From positions 1-40,817 of the forward strand of contig NZ_JACSWC010000436.1 in assembly GCF_016888165.1 (NCBI RefSeq): a stretch of DNA of 40,817 nucleotides, written 5' to 3'. The notes beneath the pieces are model-generated. The model was given only the letters and a program-made list of their open reading frames with translations. It was not told where the DNA came from and did not search any database. Origin of the DNA: Halomicronema sp. CCY15110 (GTDB lineage Bacteria; Cyanobacteriota; Cyanobacteriia; Phormidesmidales; Phormidesmidaceae). This document shows positions 2,964-30,382 of the stretch, one piece after another. Position 1 is the stretch's first letter, and each line of letters opens with the position of its first letter. The position numbers and the translations under genes were made by a program.

Positions 2964-3209
2964 ATGGCGCGGGAGCAATGTGCCGTAGTTGTCAGAGACA
3001 TGGGCGATCGCACTGACAACATCCGAGTCATCCGCGTCGATACTGCCCTTCTTGCGCAAGCCCTCGACCTCTATCAATTTCGCCCCGATAAAGACTGGGG
3101 GCTGACCGACGGTATTTCCTGCATCGTGATGCAGCGGCAAGATTTGGTGGATGTAGTCACCAGCGATCGCCACTTTCGCCCAGCCAGTTTCCACATAGCA
3201 ATGACATGA
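2964..3209 (+). pseudogene. PIN-domain (VapC-type) toxin, 3' remnant
   Basis: The frame gives about 80 residues that look like the C-terminal half of a PIN-domain ribonuclease. The segment RPDKDWGLTDGISCIVM matches the usual DKDWSLTDCISF..M block that carries conserved acidic residues. It is followed by VVTSDRHF, like the usual ALTADHHF. The N-terminal half with the first catalytic aspartate is missing. The upstream 90 bases show only short broken frames, and no antitoxin gene is adjacent. It is therefore a decayed toxin rather than a working toxin-antitoxin pair. The family call comes from motif recognition alone. Confidence 0.65.
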
Positions 3210-3309
3210 GACTGAAGGGGCGATCGGCAGCTCACTGGGGCAGAAAAATATCAGCCACCGAGCCTTGCTCAGCCCCCCAATGTTCAACTAAGCGGGTTAG
3301 CGGACAAGG

Positions 3310-3483
3310 CTAACCTGAAACTGCCAGGGCAACGCTCTCAACGAGAATCAAGCTGACGGCGACCCAAGTCCATACCGTAATTTGGCCAGAGATACGGCTG
3401 AATAAGGAATAGAGTACGCAAAAGCTGAGAATCCAGAAGATCACCGTATGGAGCAGATTGATTTGGCTGAAGGTGATTTTTAT
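3310..3483 (-). pseudogene. Short decayed membrane-protein gene
   Basis: The minus strand reads about 57 codons of mostly hydrophobic sequence with two likely membrane helices (around HTVIFWILSFCVLYSLF and TVWTWVAVSLILVESVALAV). At the natural start position there is ATA instead of ATG (3483-3481), preceded by AGGA at a normal ribosome-binding distance. No other good start is seen. The frame ends abruptly after the second helix. I infer a small membrane protein that has lost its start codon and probably its tail. It has no recognisable family. Confidence 0.35.
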
Positions 3484-3508
3484 CGTTTCCTACTGATCTT
3501 GAGTCGTT

Positions 3509-6490
3509 TTAGGGCAAAGTCTGGAGATGTTTGGGGATAGGGTTTTGGTGCCCAGAAGGGGAAAACCTTCGAGCGATCGCCTTCCGCACCTCCTCAGCTC
3601 CTAAGACCATGAGCGGACATAGCAACAGCATGACCCACTGCGCTGGATTTAAAGGGGCCGTAGAGAAGATGGCTCGGAGGGGCGAAATCTGAATAATGGC
3701 GATGATCAGCGTCCATTCAAACAACATGCCCAACCAGATGAGGGGATTAGAAAACCAGCCCAACCGCCAGATCGAAGCTTTCTCCGAGCGACAGGCAAAC
3801 ACGTTGCCATCCTGACAGGCGACGATCGCCGCCAAGGTCAAGGTGGTCGCCTGGGCATAGATCAGCAGCACCGGGGCAGTAGCCGCGTGGCTCAACAGAG
3901 CGGGCGTCACCGCTTGAATCTCGCCCAAGCCATAACCGTGGGTGCGCCAGACCCAGAAAAAGGCGGCCATGCCCAACACCGCTTCCCACAGCCCCAACCA
4001 GCAGTAGGCTCGCAATAACAGCGCTCGATCCATCAGGGGATGGGTGGGCGATCGCGGTGGCTGTTGCATGAGGCCCGGTTCTGCGGCTTCGGCTCCCAAG
4101 GCGAGGGCGGGCACCATGTCGGTGCCCAGGTCGATCGCCAGAATTTGCATAATTACCAGTGCGGGTGGAATCTTCAGCGCCACCATGAGCAGGAAGGGCA
4201 CCAGCTCCGCCACATTGGACGCGAGGATATAGGTGATGAACTTGCGGATGTTTTGGTAAACGGTGCGACCTTGCTCGATCGCGCCCACAATGGTGGCAAA
4301 GTTGTCGTCAGTCAGCACAATGTCGGCGGCCTCGCGAGCCACGTCAGTCCCGTTCAAGCCCATCGCGACTCCAATGTGGGAGGACCGCAGCGCCGGGGCA
4401 TCGTTCACTCCATCGCCGGTGACTGCGACGATCGCGCCGGTTGCTTTGTAAGCCTCTACCAGCCGGAGTTTGTGTTCCGGCGACATGCGGGCAAACACTA
4501 GCTTCGAGCGGTATTTCAGCATTTGCTGGAGCTGGGCCCCCGAGAGGTGACCCATACTTTCGCCCGTCACTACCCGCACCTGCTCATGGGGATTAAAGCT
4601 GTCGTCGAGCAGGCCAATTTGCTGGGCGATCGCCTCAGCGGTCAGGCCATAGTCGCCAGTTACCATGGTCACGCGAATGCCCGCTTGATGACACTGAGCG
4701 ATCGCCTCCGGCACTTCGGGACGGGGCGGATCAAACATCGCCACCAGCCCGAGAAACGTCAATTCCTGCTCCAAATCCTGCGCTTTCATATCCTTCAGCT
4801 CAGCGCCACCGGGCCGCACCGCCACCCCCAGCACCCGAAAGCCTTGACGGGCCAGGGCGTCGTTAGCGGTGACGACCGTTTGCCAATCTTGATGCTGCAA
4901 TTCGGCGAGCGCCCCATCGCGCACAATATGTTGACAATGGCGCACAACTTCCAACGGCGCACCCTTGGTGAACGCTACCTGTTCTGTCGGTTGGGAAAAG
5001 GTCTGGGGCCAGAGGTCATCGCGCCCGTCCAACACCACGGTCATCATGCGGCGGCGCGAGTCAAAGGGGATTTCCCGCCGCCGGGGATAGCGCTGCTGCA
5101 ATTCCTCCACGTTGAGGCCGCTTTTGGCCGCCGCGACGATTAGCGCCGCTTCGGTGGGGTCGCCCATCTCTTGCCAGCGACTGGGGGCCGTCAGATGCAT
5201 CAGGCGAGCGTTGGAGCACAGGGCTGCTCCCATCAGCAACAGCTGGGCTTTCCAAGCCAGGGGCGCATCTTCGGATAAATGCACCTGGCCTATCGTCGGG
5301 TCATACCCGGCTCCGGTGACGGCAATGTGACCGGCGGGAAGACCGTGCTCTGACGGGGGGAGGTCGTCCTGCGATCGGGGCGGCAGCCAGAGATAGCGCA
5401 CCGTCATTTCGTTTTTGGTCAGGGTGCCAGTTTTGTCAGTGCAGATCACGTTCACCGCGCTCAAGGTTTCCACCGCTGAAAGTCGCCGCACCAGGGCGTT
5501 GTGCCGCACCATGCGCTTGACGCCGATCGCCAGCGAGAGCGTCACGGTGGGCAACAGTCCCTCGGGGACCAGCGCCACGATAATGCCGATCGCAAAAATG
5601 AAGCTCTCTTTCACCTCCATGCCCACGAGCCAAGAAGTCAGGGTAAAAATCAGGACTCCCATACTCAGGGCGATCGCCGTAATCACCCGCACAATATGGC
5701 TGACCTGGACTTCGAGGGTGCTGGGCTCTCGCTTCACCTCGGTGGTCAAGTGAGCCACCTGACCAAATTCGGTCTGGGTGCCCGTCGCATAAACCACGGC
5801 AGTGCCCCGCCCGGAAGACACCGTCGCTCCGGCCAGCACCAGATTGCTGATTTCAGCAGGATTGGCTTGCTCATGGTGGGGGGTTTCACCGGGGCGCGCC
5901 AACGGCTTACCGCCCCGCACCGGCAGGGCCTCTCGCTGGCGAACCGGGTGGGGGTTGCGGGCGACGGGCAGGGATTCTCCCGTGAGCACCGACCCGTCCA
6001 GATACAGACTTTCCGCCTTGACCAGACGGGCATCGGCGGAAACGCGATCGCCTTCCTCCAACTGCATCACATCGCCTCGCACTAACTCCCTGGCGGGAAT
6101 CTGCGTCAAGGTGCCATCGCGGAAAACCTGCACCTGGCTCGGCAGCACATTCTTCAACGCCGCCAGAGCCTGCTCTGCCCGAAACTCTTGCCAAAAGCTG
6201 AATACAGCATTGATCCAGATCACTGCCCAGATCGCCCAGCCCAGGGCCGCCGTGTGGGAGATGAAGGCCAAAATGCCCGCCACCCACAGCAGCAAGGCCA
6301 TGAAGTGGGTGAGCTGATCGGTAAAGCGCAACCACAGGGGTCGCCGGGGTGGTTCGGGCAACTCGTTCGCCCCAAATTGCTGAAGGCGTGCTTGAGCTTC
6401 AAATGCCTTGAGTCCCTGAGGCGTTGTGCCCAAGGTTGGGTACACCCCTTCGATGGGCAGCGTCCAAATAGGACCGTGGGTGGATGTCAT
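3509..6490 (-). CDS. Cation-transporting P-type ATPase (P2-like)
   Basis: The 993-residue length is normal for a P2-type pump. An N-terminal cation-ATPase domain comes first, then the actuator motif LTGES (about residue 170) and the membrane motif VPEGLLPTVTL. The phosphorylated aspartate is D352 in DKTGTLT. The hinge motif GDGVNDAP is near residue 693, and a C-terminal block of membrane helices follows. The pump moves a cation across the membrane at the cost of ATP. The VPEGLL motif fits the Ca2+/Na+/K+-type branch rather than heavy-metal pumps, and there is no N-terminal CxxC metal-binding domain. The ion itself cannot be read from sequence. AAGGGG lies about 8 bases before the ATG. It stands alone on its strand, downstream of the sulfate cluster. 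Confidence 0.93.
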   Translation of the reverse strand: MTSTHGPIWTLPIEGVYPTLGTTPQGLKAFEAQARLQQFGANELPEPPRRPLWLRFTDQLTHFMALLLWVAGILAFISHTAALGWAIWAVIWINAVFSFWQEFRAEQALAALKNVLPSQVQVFRDGTLTQIPARELVRGDVMQLEEGDRVSADARLVKAESLYLDGSVLTGESLPVARNPHPVRQREALPVRGGKPLARPGETPHHEQANPAEISNLVLAGATVSSGRGTAVVYATGTQTEFGQVAHLTTEVKREPSTLEVQVSHIVRVITAIALSMGVLIFTLTSWLVGMEVKESFIFAIGIIVALVPEGLLPTVTLSLAIGVKRMVRHNALVRRLSAVETLSAVNVICTDKTGTLTKNEMTVRYLWLPPRSQDDLPPSEHGLPAGHIAVTGAGYDPTIGQVHLSEDAPLAWKAQLLLMGAALCSNARLMHLTAPSRWQEMGDPTEAALIVAAAKSGLNVEELQQRYPRRREIPFDSRRRMMTVVLDGRDDLWPQTFSQPTEQVAFTKGAPLEVVRHCQHIVRDGALAELQHQDWQTVVTANDALARQGFRVLGVAVRPGGAELKDMKAQDLEQELTFLGLVAMFDPPRPEVPEAIAQCHQAGIRVTMVTGDYGLTAEAIAQQIGLLDDSFNPHEQVRVVTGESMGHLSGAQLQQMLKYRSKLVFARMSPEHKLRLVEAYKATGAIVAVTGDGVNDAPALRSSHIGVAMGLNGTDVAREAADIVLTDDNFATIVGAIEQGRTVYQNIRKFITYILASNVAELVPFLLMVALKIPPALVIMQILAIDLGTDMVPALALGAEAAEPGLMQQPPRSPTHPLMDRALLLRAYCWLGLWEAVLGMAAFFWVWRTHGYGLGEIQAVTPALLSHAATAPVLLIYAQATTLTLAAIVACQDGNVFACRSEKASIWRLGWFSNPLIWLGMLFEWTLIIAIIQISPLRAIFSTAPLNPAQWVMLLLCPLMVLGAEEVRKAIARRFSPSGHQNPIPKHLQTLP

Positions 6491-26255: not shown

Positions 26256-26915
26256 ATGCTCCAGGCGGTACTGTTCGACCTTGACGGCACCCTGACCAAC
26301 ACCGACCCGATTCACATCAAAGTCTGGCGCGACATTTTAGAACCGGAAGGCTATACCGTTGACGACGATTTTTTTAAGGAACACATCAGCGGTCGGCTCA
26401 ACGAGTACCTGATCAAAGAACTGCTGCCCCACCTCTCCGCCGCCGAGGGCGAACAATTAGCGGTGGATAAAGAAGCAACATTCCGCGAGTTGGCTGCCAG
26501 TGAACTCACGCGGATGCCCGGATTTGACGAACTCTATGACTGGATCAAACGCCAAGGGCTGAAAACCGCTGTCGTCACCAATGCACCCCGCGCCAACGCT
26601 GAATTTGTGCTCCAGATTTTGCAGCTCGAATCGGCCTTCGATTTTTTGCTGATTGCAGGCGAGTTGCCCCGCAGCAAACCCGACCCGTTGCCTTATCAAA
26701 CGGCACTTGATCGATTTGAGATCTCGGCAGGGGATGCGATCGTGTTTGAAGACTCGAAAACTGGCATTCAGTCGGCGGTATCCGCCCAAATTCCCACCAT
26801 GGGTGTGGCCTCGACCCACGCCCCGGATGTGCTGTACGGCTACGGGGCCAGTCTCGTGATTGAGCAATTCAACGATTCGCGCCTCCAAAAGTTTGGTCTG
26901 TTCCAAGCCAACTAA
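26256..26915 (+). CDS. HAD-superfamily phosphatase (beta-phosphoglucomutase-like)
   Basis: The 219-residue protein has HAD motif I FDLDGTLTN (D9 nucleophile, D11 acid/base), motif II VVTNAP, motif III lysine in SKPDPLPY and motif IV FEDSKTG. A helical cap lies between motifs I and II, as in subfamily IA. Such enzymes cleave small phosphate esters or shift phosphates on sugars. The substrate cannot be told. Its stop codon touches the terminator that serves the opposed module. Confidence 0.9.
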   Translation: MLQAVLFDLDGTLTNTDPIHIKVWRDILEPEGYTVDDDFFKEHISGRLNEYLIKELLPHLSAAEGEQLAVDKEATFRELAASELTRMPGFDELYDWIKRQGLKTAVVTNAPRANAEFVLQILQLESAFDFLLIAGELPRSKPDPLPYQTALDRFEISAGDAIVFEDSKTGIQSAVSAQIPTMGVASTHAPDVLYGYGASLVIEQFNDSRLQKFGLFQAN

Positions 26916-26948
26916 AAAACCCGATTCCCATTGAGCATGAGAACCGGG
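26914..26948 (-). terminator. Rho-independent terminator of the 26980-27977 module
   Basis: On the minus strand CCCGGTTCTCAT pairs with ATGGGAATCGGG around GCTCA. All 12 positions pair, two of them G-U, and six Ts follow at once. Read on the plus strand the same stem has two A-C mismatches and no T-run, so it works for the minus-strand genes. Confidence 0.85.
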
Positions 26949-26979
26949 CCAATTGTTGGTTCATCAACTTAATGCGCTG

Positions 26980-27351
26980 TCAGCTTTTCCAACCTTCGAT
27001 CGCAGCCACCACCACATTCACATAAGGATTGTCCAAAAACTCCTCAATGGCCGTTCGGCCACCTGCGATCAGGGCTTTCACCAGCCGTTTTTTCACTGGC
27101 TGGGAGGTTGTGATGTTCAGTAATGTTTGCGCCTCGGCCTCGGTGACATCGGGGTTGTCCTGTTTTACCTCGGCTAACTTGGCTTGCAATGCTTGTAAAT
27201 CGGCAGCGAGCTGTTGCTTGGCTGGATCCGCTGAAGTAGGAGTCATTGTGTTACGCGAGGTCAGTCGAATATCTCTAACTGTCCCCGTGTTGATGGCGGA
27301 GCCTATGGCGGAGCCGTCAATTTGCACTGATCGATTTGATGTGTCACCCAT
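26980..27351 (-). CDS. Small soluble protein with an N-terminal GSAxNxG tag
   Basis: The 123-residue product opens with a tag (residues 6-28, containing DGSAIGSAINTGTVR). A charged coiled-coil-like helix follows (about 40-75, AADLQALQAKLAEVKQDN). The C-terminal helical part ends in AIEEFLDNPYVNVVVAAIEGWK. AGAGG sits 7 bases before the ATG at 27351. It lies 56 bp downstream of a membrane-protein gene that carries the same kind of tag at its C-terminus, and it is followed by a strong terminator. I do not recognise the family with certainty. The tag resembles short beta segments found in cyanobacterial conflict and signalling proteins. Confidence 0.75.
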   Translation of the reverse strand: MGDTSNRSVQIDGSAIGSAINTGTVRDIRLTSRNTMTPTSADPAKQQLAADLQALQAKLAEVKQDNPDVTEAEAQTLLNITTSQPVKKRLVKALIAGGRTAIEEFLDNPYVNVVVAAIEGWKS

Positions 27352-27407
27352 GATAAAACCTCTAATGAACTTAAAAACTGAATAAGGATCGTTAATCAGA
27401 CTCTCTC

Positions 27408-27977
27408 CTATGTGCTTAAATTTCTAGCCGATCCTGAATTAAAGGCACTTCCGTAAACATCTCCGCCCACATTTATGGAGTGATTTTTGTGAACAAAATT
27501 AATTTTCCTGACTTTATTCGTCACAAAGTTCGCGACATAATTTTCGACATGCCTAGGATTTTCGATCTTTTGTTTCAGTACCTCAACAACTTCATGCAGA
27601 AAACGCGGATTTTGACTTTCAAAACATTCCTCAAATCCAGAGTCAAAATGCAATAGCAAAACGTAGATATATCCTAGATGCTGGTATTCACTCTTGATAT
27701 ACAAGCCAAGCGCAACGAAGATCATCAGAAATCCAACAAGCAGAATCATGAGTTCTTCTGCGATCGCTGTCATCAGAGACCCTAAAAACAGCCAGCCTAG
27801 TGGCACAGAGAGCGGAATTGAATAGTCTTCAACTCGTTTCCACTTTTCGACGGTAGCGTAGGCAATGTTACTGATTTGGTAAATGGTGTCTTCAAAAATC
27901 AGTGCATTATCTTTGATGTGGATTTTGTCAGGCTTTTTAGGATCGAGCCGGAACTTTTCTTTGGTGATGCTAATCAT
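27408..27977 (-). CDS. PH-like membrane protein (DUF6232-like) with a C-terminal GSAxNxG tag
   Basis: The 189-residue product has an N-terminal beta-rich segment (IHIKDNALIFEDTIYQISNIAYATVEKWK). Two membrane helices follow (about 55-72 and 76-93), then a second beta segment (GYIYVLLLHFDSGFEECFES) and a helix (about 124-152). This order fits the bacterial PH-like DUF6232 group. Residues 165-187 (HSINVGGDVYGSAFNSGSAR in the middle) align without gaps with residues 6-28 of the next gene's product. The A+T content is clearly higher than in the flanking genes, a sign of transfer. The function is unknown. Confidence 0.75.
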   Translation of the reverse strand: MISITKEKFRLDPKKPDKIHIKDNALIFEDTIYQISNIAYATVEKWKRVEDYSIPLSVPLGWLFLGSLMTAIAEELMILLVGFLMIFVALGLYIKSEYQHLGYIYVLLLHFDSGFEECFESQNPRFLHEVVEVLKQKIENPRHVENYVANFVTNKVRKINFVHKNHSINVGGDVYGSAFNSGSARNLST

Positions 27978-28191: not shown

Positions 28192-29514
28192 ATGACCCCA
28201 ACGCTGAAACTGTATGGCTTGCTGGCGATCGCGGGTGCCCTCGCCACCGCCCTGGATGCGTTGGGGCCAACTGAAGCCGTCATTTCCTTGCCGCTAGAGG
28301 CGATGCTGTTTGTGAACGGCATGATTCTGCTGTTGATGGTGGTGGACTGGGCGCAGGTGAATGGCCCCCAGCGGGCGATCGCCCAGCGCGAACAACTGCC
28401 TCGCCTCTCCATTGGTCGCGACAATCCGGTTACGCTCAAAGTCTCTGCCCCCAAAGCCGCCGCCAAACTGCAAATCTTCGATCGCTATCCCACCGACTTT
28501 GACGACATCCCAATGCCACTCACGGTGGATTTGCCCGCCAAAACCGCCACTCAGATTACCTATCAAGTTTTACCGCGACAGCGCGGCGAATATCAGTGGG
28601 GCGACCTGCAGATGCGCCAGCTAGGACCGTGGGGCTTGGCCTGGCGCAGTTGGACGCTTCCCGCCGAGCAAACTGTCGCCGTCTATCCCGATTTGGTCGG
28701 GCTGCGATCGCTCTCGGTCAAACTCGCCATCCAATCTACCGGCAGCATGCGCCAGCGCCAGCGGGTCGGCATCGGCACCGAATTTGCCGAACTGCGCGAA
28801 TACGCCGTTGGCGACGACCCGCGCTTCATCGACTGGAAAGCCACGGCCCGCCGCAGCGCCCCCCTTATCCGGGTTTTGGAACCTGAACGCGAACAATCCC
28901 TCATTGTGCTGCTCGATCGCGGTCGCCTCATGACCGCCAACGTCAAAGGGCTTTCCCGCTTTGACTGGGGGCTGAATGCCACCCTTTCCCTTGCGCTGGC
29001 TGGACTGCACCGGGGCGATCGCGTCGGCGTCGGCGTCTTCGATCGCGAAATGCACACCTGGATTCCCGCCACCGGGGGCCGCCAGCACCTGCAACGCCTG
29101 ATCGAAAAACTCACCCCCATTCAGCCCGCCATGCTCGAATCTGACTATTTAGGCGCGGTGACCAAAGTGGCGACCCAACAACACCGTCGCGCCCTCGTCG
29201 TCGTCATCACCGATCTGGTCGATCAAACTGCTTCTGCCGAATTGCTCACCGCTCTGACCCGCCTCAAATCGCGCCACCTGCCCTTTTGTGTCACCCTGCG
29301 CGATCCACAAGTCGATACCCAGGCCCACGAATTTGCCGATGATGTCAGTGCGGCCTACCGCCGCGCCGTCGCCCTCGATTTACTGGAACAGCGCCAGGCC
29401 GCCTTTGCCCAACTCAAGCAGGCGGGCGTGTTGGTACTCGATGCCCCCGCCGACCAAATCACCGATCCGCTGGTGGAAGACTATCTCCGCATCAAAGCCC
29501 GCAACCGCTTATAA
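28192..29514 (+). CDS. DUF58-domain protein with von Willebrand factor A-like region
   Basis: The 440-residue protein has two N-terminal membrane helices (about 7-25 and 40-55). A beta-rich part follows. The DUF58 core reads GIGTEFAELREYAVGDDPRFIDWKATAR (near residues 195-222), then a VWA-like stretch with IVLLDRGRLM, a degenerate MIDAS in which DxSxS is replaced by DRGRL. DUF58 proteins usually accompany a MoxR AAA+ ATPase, but none lies nearby. A role in envelope assembly or chaperoning is known only loosely for the family. Confidence 0.9.
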   Translation: MTPTLKLYGLLAIAGALATALDALGPTEAVISLPLEAMLFVNGMILLLMVVDWAQVNGPQRAIAQREQLPRLSIGRDNPVTLKVSAPKAAAKLQIFDRYPTDFDDIPMPLTVDLPAKTATQITYQVLPRQRGEYQWGDLQMRQLGPWGLAWRSWTLPAEQTVAVYPDLVGLRSLSVKLAIQSTGSMRQRQRVGIGTEFAELREYAVGDDPRFIDWKATARRSAPLIRVLEPEREQSLIVLLDRGRLMTANVKGLSRFDWGLNATLSLALAGLHRGDRVGVGVFDREMHTWIPATGGRQHLQRLIEKLTPIQPAMLESDYLGAVTKVATQQHRRALVVVITDLVDQTASAELLTALTRLKSRHLPFCVTLRDPQVDTQAHEFADDVSAAYRRAVALDLLEQRQAAFAQLKQAGVLVLDAPADQITDPLVEDYLRIKARNRL

Positions 29515-29623: not shown

Positions 29624-30382
29624 TTACTGTACAACTTCACGGTTGTTAGGAGACTGAGCATCAGGCGAAATTACACCGCTGGTGCTGTTGTTCATCTCGT
29701 CTGTACCTGAGGTGCTCTGACGAGTTGGTACCACTTCACTATCTACGCGTTCCCGATTGTTGGGGGACTGACTATCAGGCGAAATCACACCGTCAGTCAG
29801 GTTGGGATTTTCGGTCTCCATGACATCACCCGTCACGCCTTCATCAGGAATGGCCCGGTTATTCGGGGACTGACTGTCGGGAGAAATAATGCCACGGTTC
29901 GGTGCTGATGAGCGATCGAACTCGACTCTTTCACCAGTCTCGCGATAAATGTCAAAAGCTTCTTGAAAGCTCATCGGTTCATCACGGGTTTCGGTTGCGC
30001 CACTGGGCAACTCGCGATTGTTAGGCGACTGGCTGTCGGGCGAGATAATGCCGTCGATCAAATCGGGATTTTCGGCATCTACCCCATTGCCAGCGACACC
30101 TGCATCAGGAAGGGTGCGATTATTCGGCGATTGACTATCGGGCGAGATAATGCCGTCAACCCGGTTAGGGTTCTCCGTCTCTATCATTTCAGGCGATTCA
30201 ACATTGTCAGTCGGAATCTCACGGTTATTGGGTGACTGACTATCAGGAGAAATCACACCTTCAGTTGCATCAACACTGGTTTCTGGCATTTCTGATGCAT
30301 TGCTGTGCATATCGGCACGAGCAGTTGCCCCCAGTGTCAGAGCCACGGTGGCCGACAGAGAACATAAAATAAAGCGTTTCAT
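29624..30382 (-). CDS. Exported acidic protein with six copies of G[VI]ISPD[SA]QSPNNR
   Basis: The 252-residue product has a standard signal peptide (MKRFILCSLSATVALTLGA, likely cut after ARA at residue 23). The mature protein is acidic and of low complexity. A 13-residue motif occurs at residues 42-54, 77-89, 111-123, 164-176, 198-210 and 236-248. Several copies lie in a longer unit of about 34 residues with ENPN..DG before the motif and [IL]PD.GV.G after it. Between copies three and four is a unique insert, MSFQEAFDIYRETGERVEFD. The repeat DNA varies at synonymous positions, so the protein sequence is what is kept. It has no cysteine, membrane helix or known domain after the signal. The function is unknown. 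Confidence 0.85.
   Translation of the reverse strand: MKRFILCSLSATVALTLGATARADMHSNASEMPETSVDATEGVISPDSQSPNNREIPTDNVESPEMIETENPNRVDGIISPDSQSPNNRTLPDAGVAGNGVDAENPDLIDGIISPDSQSPNNRELPSGATETRDEPMSFQEAFDIYRETGERVEFDRSSAPNRGIISPDSQSPNNRAIPDEGVTGDVMETENPNLTDGVISPDSQSPNNRERVDSEVVPTRQSTSGTDEMNNSTSGVISPDAQSPNNREVVQ

Follow-up and report, generated by a model that had tools for sequence, protein, structure and literature searches.

Introduction

The described systems closest to the locus reported here are the BASS, motif pairs of NLR and Bell proteins (Dyrka et al., 2020, as described in PMC7889193, PMC8086366, and PMC12261475). As summarized in these sources, a motif of ~20-40 residues is carried by the products of adjacent genes, at the C-terminus of one, the membrane-acting protein, and at the N-terminus of the other; many motif classes are distinguished, Gly and Asn are prominent in them, and a membrane helix is predicted for the Bell partner. 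Such pairs are reported from several groups, cyanobacteria included. A second close system is EAD coupling (Kaur et al., 2020, 2021), in which, according to the accounts in PMC7159879 and PMC8195603, like-with-like modules on adjacent genes join a core protein to an effector, with the modules of neighboring genes usually being most closely related to each other. PMC7159879 also outlines a two-gene system whose first gene encodes a membrane protein proposed as a sensor. The fungal HET-s, HELLP, and sigma amyloid motif pairs, as portrayed in PMC7889193 and PMC8086366, place a short motif in the receptor and the effector of clustered genes. Whether bacterial signaling amyloids act in NLR-independent pathways was posed as a key question in a 2021 review of amyloid signaling, and past searches are described there as biased toward NLR/executor architectures (PMC7889193).

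Here we describe a pair of adjacent genes that resembles these systems in the respects just listed. It lies in the window, the whole stretch of DNA that was analyzed (40,817 nucleotides; contig C375 of a 6.15-Mb assembly of 443 contigs), and encodes a DUF6232 membrane protein and a small helical protein. As in BASS, a short motif, hereafter the tag, is common to the products of adjacent genes (22 of 22 pairs tail to head; 0 of 200,000 re-pairings as good). The pair differs from BASS in that the NLR is absent: Pfam identified no NTPase domain in either gene and no NLR among the two flanking genes. The membrane partner, a DUF6232 protein with a PH-like β fold in its model and a predicted hairpin, is also unlike Bell, an α-helical bundle with a membrane helix. 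NB-ARC and NACHT neighbors do share tags with relatives of the helical protein, and related loci with NACHT-HEAT or Roco neighbors carry the tag of the neighbor at its C-terminus, not at its N-terminus. EADs, as characterized in the two accounts cited, are small folded domains, whereas the tag described here has ~23 residues, neither monomer model gives it an ordered structure, and the helical domain lies outside the part in common; no EAD entry was present among the Pfam hits of the small proteins scanned, a database from which some EADs may be absent. The pair would work like both systems but falls under neither definition, having no NLR or Bell protein as in BASS and no folded domain in common as in EADs. 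In the two-gene system, the membrane protein has only one membrane helix and the second component a caspase domain, and the part of PMC7159879 that presents it describes no matched tag. The fungal pairs, as PMC7889193 and PMC8086366 present them, are eukaryotic, involve an NLR and mostly HeLo-type domains, and have shown prion behavior in some cases, whereas the present pair is known from sequence and models. We found no paper that names DUF6232 in a literature search, and no description of the DUF6232/helical tag pairing in titles or abstract starts from the literature on BASS, cyanobacterial amyloid signaling, DUF6232, STAND/EAD, and pentapeptide/NACHT/Roco proteins.

Results

The Window Pair and Its Tag

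The pair is flanked by a HAD-type hydrolase gene (convergent) and a DUF58 gene (divergent). Its features are listed in Table 1.

Table 1. Coordinates of the DUF6232/small-protein pair and its elements in the window.
Feature	Position	Strand	Description
Membrane protein gene, DUF6232	27408..27977	-	ORF, 189 aa; PH-like model split by transmembrane hairpin
Predicted transmembrane hairpin, codons 57-101	27675..27809	-	Helices 57-72 and 76-101, AF2 model and hydropathy
C-terminal tag of membrane protein, residues 165-187	27417..27485	-	Aligns with small-protein head
Intergenic gap, 56 bp	27352..27407	-	Between membrane gene and small gene
Small soluble protein gene, tag and helical domain	26980..27351	-	ORF, 123 aa
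N-terminal tag of small protein, residues 6-28	27268..27336	-	Aligns with membrane-protein tail
Helical domain of small protein, codons 43-121	26989..27225	-	AF2 helices and profile matches
Intrinsic-terminator-like site 3′ of both genes, between convergent genes	26918..26950	-	14-pair stem, loop of 5, T-rich tail

A preliminary description of this DNA had claimed a gapless 23-residue alignment between the tail of the membrane protein (residues 165-187) and the head of the small protein (residues 6-28), with nine identities. We reproduced it exactly (9/23 identical). No other local alignment of the complete proteins scores higher (56, reached by 0 of 2000 shuffles), the match is not due to chance, and it was also recovered by tblastn of either protein against a 4.3-kb locus (E 0.004). 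When the 32-residue membrane tail was searched against all six frames of its own assembly (threshold E ≤ 10, three candidates scored), it matched nothing besides itself and the head of the next gene, the latter at an E of 0.52 that is by itself not significant. A profile of ten small proteins also picks up the membrane tail, weakly (E 0.13). As to the other claims on the locus, the 56-bp spacing agrees with the ORF coordinates, and the intrinsic terminator attributed to the pair was found at 26950-26918 on the gene strand. The region has three sites of that kind; shuffled sequences would be expected to have 1.4. Both genes had been called A+T-rich on a G+C-rich background. The membrane gene has a G+C content of 39.6%, the small gene one of 52.2%, and the window as a whole one of 56.2%, so that the claim clearly applies to the membrane gene only.

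Predicted Structures of the Two Proteins

The membrane protein passes the cut-off of Pfam family DUF6232 (PF19744; 31.8 bits vs. 27.4). Its hydropathy in 19-residue windows exceeds 1.6 within residues 54-97 and peaks at 2.83 at residues 76-94. An AF2 model built from eight sequences (mean pLDDT 66) shows, in this order, four strands, the two hydrophobic helices of Table 1, two strands, a C-terminal helix (124-139), and a low-confidence tail that holds the tag (pLDDT about 31-34), the strands falling within residues 19-47 and 103-121. The division of the pair into a membrane and a soluble protein, also part of the preliminary description, is supported by Pfam, hydropathy, and structure models alike. 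Foldseek alone returned no match to the membrane-protein model at E ≤ 0.001. Among Foldseek candidates compared by VIA-align, PH and PH-like domains led (rmsd 2.0-3.5, 73-78 residues aligned), with Z up to 9.1, a value only slightly higher than the 7-8 that unmatched models commonly reach. Judging from the models, the protein most likely consists of a PH-like domain into which a membrane hairpin is inserted, and both of its ends would lie in the cytoplasm. PADLOC gave no match for it, and the named relatives found with its profile are cyanobacterial (Microcoleus, Oscillatoriales, Rhizonema).

In the AF2 model of the small protein, built from four sequences, helices span residues 43-65, 71-81, 84-103, and 111-121 (block pLDDT 76-89), and the first 40 residues, tag included, have pLDDT < 50. 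Pfam and NCBIfam contained no family above cut-off for this protein, and Pfam had none for any of the three small proteins of this helical type that were scanned. Foldseek found nothing for the model at E ≤ 0.001, and VIA-align reached a Z of 5.3 at best; we therefore claim no fold name, and the domain may belong to a family outside the compared list. The PADLOC match of the window protein to E1-E2 is weak (E 0.0068, 13.5 bits, cut-off not given). The same holds for the partner at locus L056 (2034-2447), which is of a second helical type and matched the PADLOC candidate model PDC-M14B over its helical part (E 0.0005, 17.7 bits, cut-off not given). The profile of ten small proteins matches 170 of 388 genomes of the class, and many of the matches that we read are C-terminal parts of larger proteins.

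Pairing Across Genomes

Of 291 genomes of the class, 28 have a PF19744 match, which passes the cut-off in 23, and a profile of the tagged form of the membrane protein matched 21 of 388. We examined 30 DUF6232 loci with flanks of 1.5 kb or less, some of which share a contig or a genome; the set leaves out two PF19744 matches, G149:C46 (later L083) and G091:C162, and five of its loci are below the DUF6232 cut-off (L055, L057, L058, and L059, untagged, and L056, tagged). Fifteen loci were judged to be tagged, from C-termini read by eye with the next gene in view and not blind, and in each of these the gene after the membrane gene encodes a matching tag at the N-terminus; a broken gene is present in two of the loci. 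The helical partner was found by profile in 13 of the 15 (the next gene is a different one in L040 and in L039, the latter with a weak match) and, within the flanks covered, in none of the 15 remaining loci.

Tail to head is the best full-length alignment of every intact DUF6232/partner pair examined, and all 22 have identical order and strand, with gaps of 23-97 bp. This set excludes L034, where the partner is broken, and L044 and L086, where the membrane gene is broken (the L086 fragments were included in the codon comparison and in the tail/head scoring with the window pair), and it counts once the pairs of L087, L048, and L083, which L093, L094, and L096 repeat. Three of the matches are weak singly: of 2000 shuffles, 256 were as good as the match of L079, 108 as that of L047, and 104 as that of L040. 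Recurrence in other genomes had been proposed earlier as a check on the pair; the pairing does recur, and tag and partner vary together between loci.

Some neighboring genes deserve mention. The gene after the membrane gene in L079 (2057-2683), where the tag match is weak, encodes a 208-aa protein with hydrophobic stretches and not a helical protein. In genome G105, a gene of ~210 aa, similar in both cases (L084 418-1050 and L088 2349-2978), comes after two of the tag pairs and may encode a third component. By inspection, the gene divergent from the DUF6232 pair encodes an HTH and an NB-ARC-like part in L094 (2344-3672) and L096 (2342-3676), and a related HTH gene without the NB-ARC-like part is present in L090-L092 (about 2970-3778). 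An NLR-type gene may be linked to the pair at L094 and L096.

Proposed Mode of Action

We consider it rather probable that the pair is a two-gene module in which a membrane anchor or sensor and a small transducer or effector are coupled by a like-with-like, possibly amyloid-like tag. The PH-like DUF6232 protein with its transmembrane hairpin would be the anchor or sensor, the small four-helix protein would be the transducer or effector, and the short Gly/Asn-rich tag, at the C-terminus of the first and the N-terminus of the second, would couple them. The tags would most likely recognize each other by like-with-like β stacking, and an amyloid-like polymer would probably be seeded at the membrane, gathering many helical domains there. 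Tag versions differ from locus to locus, which would keep modules of unlike tag class separate within a cell. Physical binding, polymerization, sensing by the membrane protein, and a role in conflict, cell death, or defense are all features that we infer; for the window pair, nothing beyond the weak PADLOC match points to defense, and neither of the two flanking genes encodes an NLR. The pair, having a membrane partner and no NLR of its own, is a direct candidate for an NLR-independent signaling amyloid. If the proposal is true, it would give a first lead to the function of DUF6232 and of the helical domain found in 170 of the 388 cyanobacterial genomes examined.

Helical Proteins Apart From DUF6232 and Fusions

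Two samples of helical proteins located apart from DUF6232 were drawn from the list of helical-profile matches, one of short frames at 20 places (L126-L145) and one of ~200-residue frames at another 20 (L163-L182). With L146, a second helical gene of the genome that holds the window, the first sample amounted to 21 loci, 19 of which were scorable (L142 and L143 had no scorable small protein). The best tag match within the own region beat all 20 other regions in 10 of these 19, where about one would be expected by chance. In the second sample the own-region match was best in 7 of 20, a test blunted because many of its loci share one GDxxxGDK tag class, and a neighbor match of at least 54 was present in 10 of 20. 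According to Pfam, the tag-sharing neighbors in the first sample include NB-ARC (L127), NACHT-HEAT (L137 and L138), Roco (L145 and, less clearly, L141), and pentapeptide (L131) proteins; others have no known domain. The idea of a two-gene module, as first put forward, is supported as to the pairing and too narrow as to its scope, since the helical domain is so widespread and the tags are common to other neighbors.

The L146 locus (G000:C45, about 1878-2138) encodes a 144-aa tag and helical protein beside a 458-aa frame that is open at the locus end, and both carry YDLRGxxFGGGFAxxGGxQVGG, so that this genome holds a second tag-sharing pair.

Fusions of the type Roco-tag-helix and pentapeptide-tag-helix exist, with a tag-like stretch between the parts. 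L081 and L078 (the latter by reading only) each join a DUF6232-like part to a helical part and keep a tag-like stretch, although L081 is below the DUF6232 cut-off, L078 has no Pfam match, and their stretches resemble known tags weakly (best scores 36 and 43, respectively). These fusions bear on a simpler explanation, namely that the tags form a plain, constant 1:1 β-strand contact by which the small protein is held at the membrane, and that neither a polymer nor a switch is involved. Such a contact would account for the conserved pairing, the order, and the tag matching without an amyloid step. However, it leaves unexplained why tag-like stretches lie inside single chains and why tags are common to helical relatives and to switch-like NACHT, NB-ARC, and Roco proteins, and we regard it as unlikely. 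The fusions keep a tag-like stretch though no second chain needs to be recruited, which argues for self-assembly over simple tethering.

Alternatively, the two genes could form a pair of the toxin-antitoxin type, in which the membrane protein damages the membrane and is neutralized, through the tag, by the small protein. The compact two-gene unit, the membrane protein, the small gap, and the patchy spread (21 of 388 genomes) would suit this explanation, but the tags are alike rather than complementary, the helical domain is common in places where DUF6232 is lacking and has receptor-type proteins among its neighbors, and a fused form with both parts exists (L081), so that we judge it improbable.

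Coupling by self-assembling tags, the explanation that we prefer, may also be part of something wider. Tentatively, we suggest an open 'address code', in which one small helical transducer would be wired to an adjacent sensor by interchangeable, fast-changing, polymerizing like-with-like tags. The sensors would comprise the membrane PH-like protein, an NLR-type NTPase, a Roco GTPase, and a pentapeptide protein, and the DUF6232 pair would be a membrane-seeded signaling amyloid that needs no NLR.

Tag Specificity, Composition, and Codon Agreement

Across the 22 pairs, matched tags had a mean score of 66.7 and mismatched tags one of 32.3, the observed sum being reached by no re-pairing; in 15 diverse pairs the means were 58.4 and 28.5, and again no re-pairing was as good. 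The protein bodies, used as a control, showed no matching effect (4058 of 50,000 re-pairings as good). The own partner ranked first in 11 of the 22 rows and in as many columns (11 and 9 of 15 in the diverse set), which is partly due to the inclusion of near relatives. The tail of the window's membrane protein fits the L041 head (63) better than the head of its own partner (56). In genome G149, two tag classes match within their class only (91-99 vs. 22-28). In G105, two of three modules, whose tags are similar, cross-match and are not cleanly insulated, the L084 tail fitting the L088 head better than its own (58 vs. 43); insulation is thus not universal. Matched and mismatched tags occur naturally, in some cases in one genome, which makes specificity testable.

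The tag types are unlike each other and include S[IV]x[IV]xGxxxGxxxNxG, GNxIQGxxxGxV, GDxIxQxGxFxxGV, GYxExxxxxQIGGxI, and SVGGxVTxGxxxGxSSSxVxGxV. Compared with the bodies in 15 pairs, tags are richer in Gly (13.3% vs. 5.8%) and Asn (12.5% vs. 5.1%) and poorer in Pro (1.0% vs. 3.1%). Matching tags within a locus would likewise be expected if both tags bound one third molecule that differs from locus to locus. This would call for a separate ligand for each tag class, whereas like-with-like contact is simpler and would also fit the fusions, and we think a common ligand quite improbable.

At identical aligned residues in 18 pairs, codons agreed at 92 of 203 positions (45%), against a background of 39%. 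In the window pair they agreed at 3 of the 9 identical residues, and agreement was raised in L087 (15/20), L056 (12/20), and L048 (10/16). As overall agreement is near background, recent DNA copying is an unlikely cause of the match in most pairs, and the sequences suggest that selection at the protein level most likely keeps the tags matched. That the tags are a functionless relic, left behind when a fused gene split or a local copy was made, as the fused versions and the three loci with raised agreement might suggest, is highly improbable given that most matches, including that of the window, seem older than silent-site saturation and that unrelated tag classes match within loci.

Genomic Site and Mobility

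The pair had been thought to have arrived by transfer, a claim that now appears weak. In two other species of the genus a DUF6232/small-protein pair adjoins the same DUF58 gene (28192-29514); the DUF58 genes are 95% and 83% identical to that of the window and the pairs only 35-45%, a very uneven divergence at one site. From these comparisons, it looks as though the pair is old at the DUF58 site and has either changed much faster than its neighbor or been replaced in place. Recent transfer is not supported, and an A+T-rich composition is clear for the membrane gene only. No relative of the pair was detected by tblastn within 1.5 kb of DUF58 in G005, where DUF58 is 92% identical, or in G004, whose pair is on another contig; G002 had no DUF58 match.

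Carriage by phages was discarded, as no relative of the helical or the DUF6232 protein was found in viral contigs with the patterns used, and carriage by plasmids likewise, as the membrane protein had no plasmid match. The relative of the small protein at L047 is matched by 33 plasmid records, 10 of them over at least 80% of the L047 protein, and several of these matches are annotated as pentapeptide proteins.

Two further observations were made in the window. A 252-aa protein encoded at 29624-30382 on the reverse strand has a signal-like N-terminus and six G(V/I)ISPD(S/A)QSPNNR repeats, and a repeat protein resembling it adjoins the DUF58 gene in another species (L158 534-1307). The contig end (1-88) consists of a 12-bp tandem repeat, GGCGGGAGGCGT.
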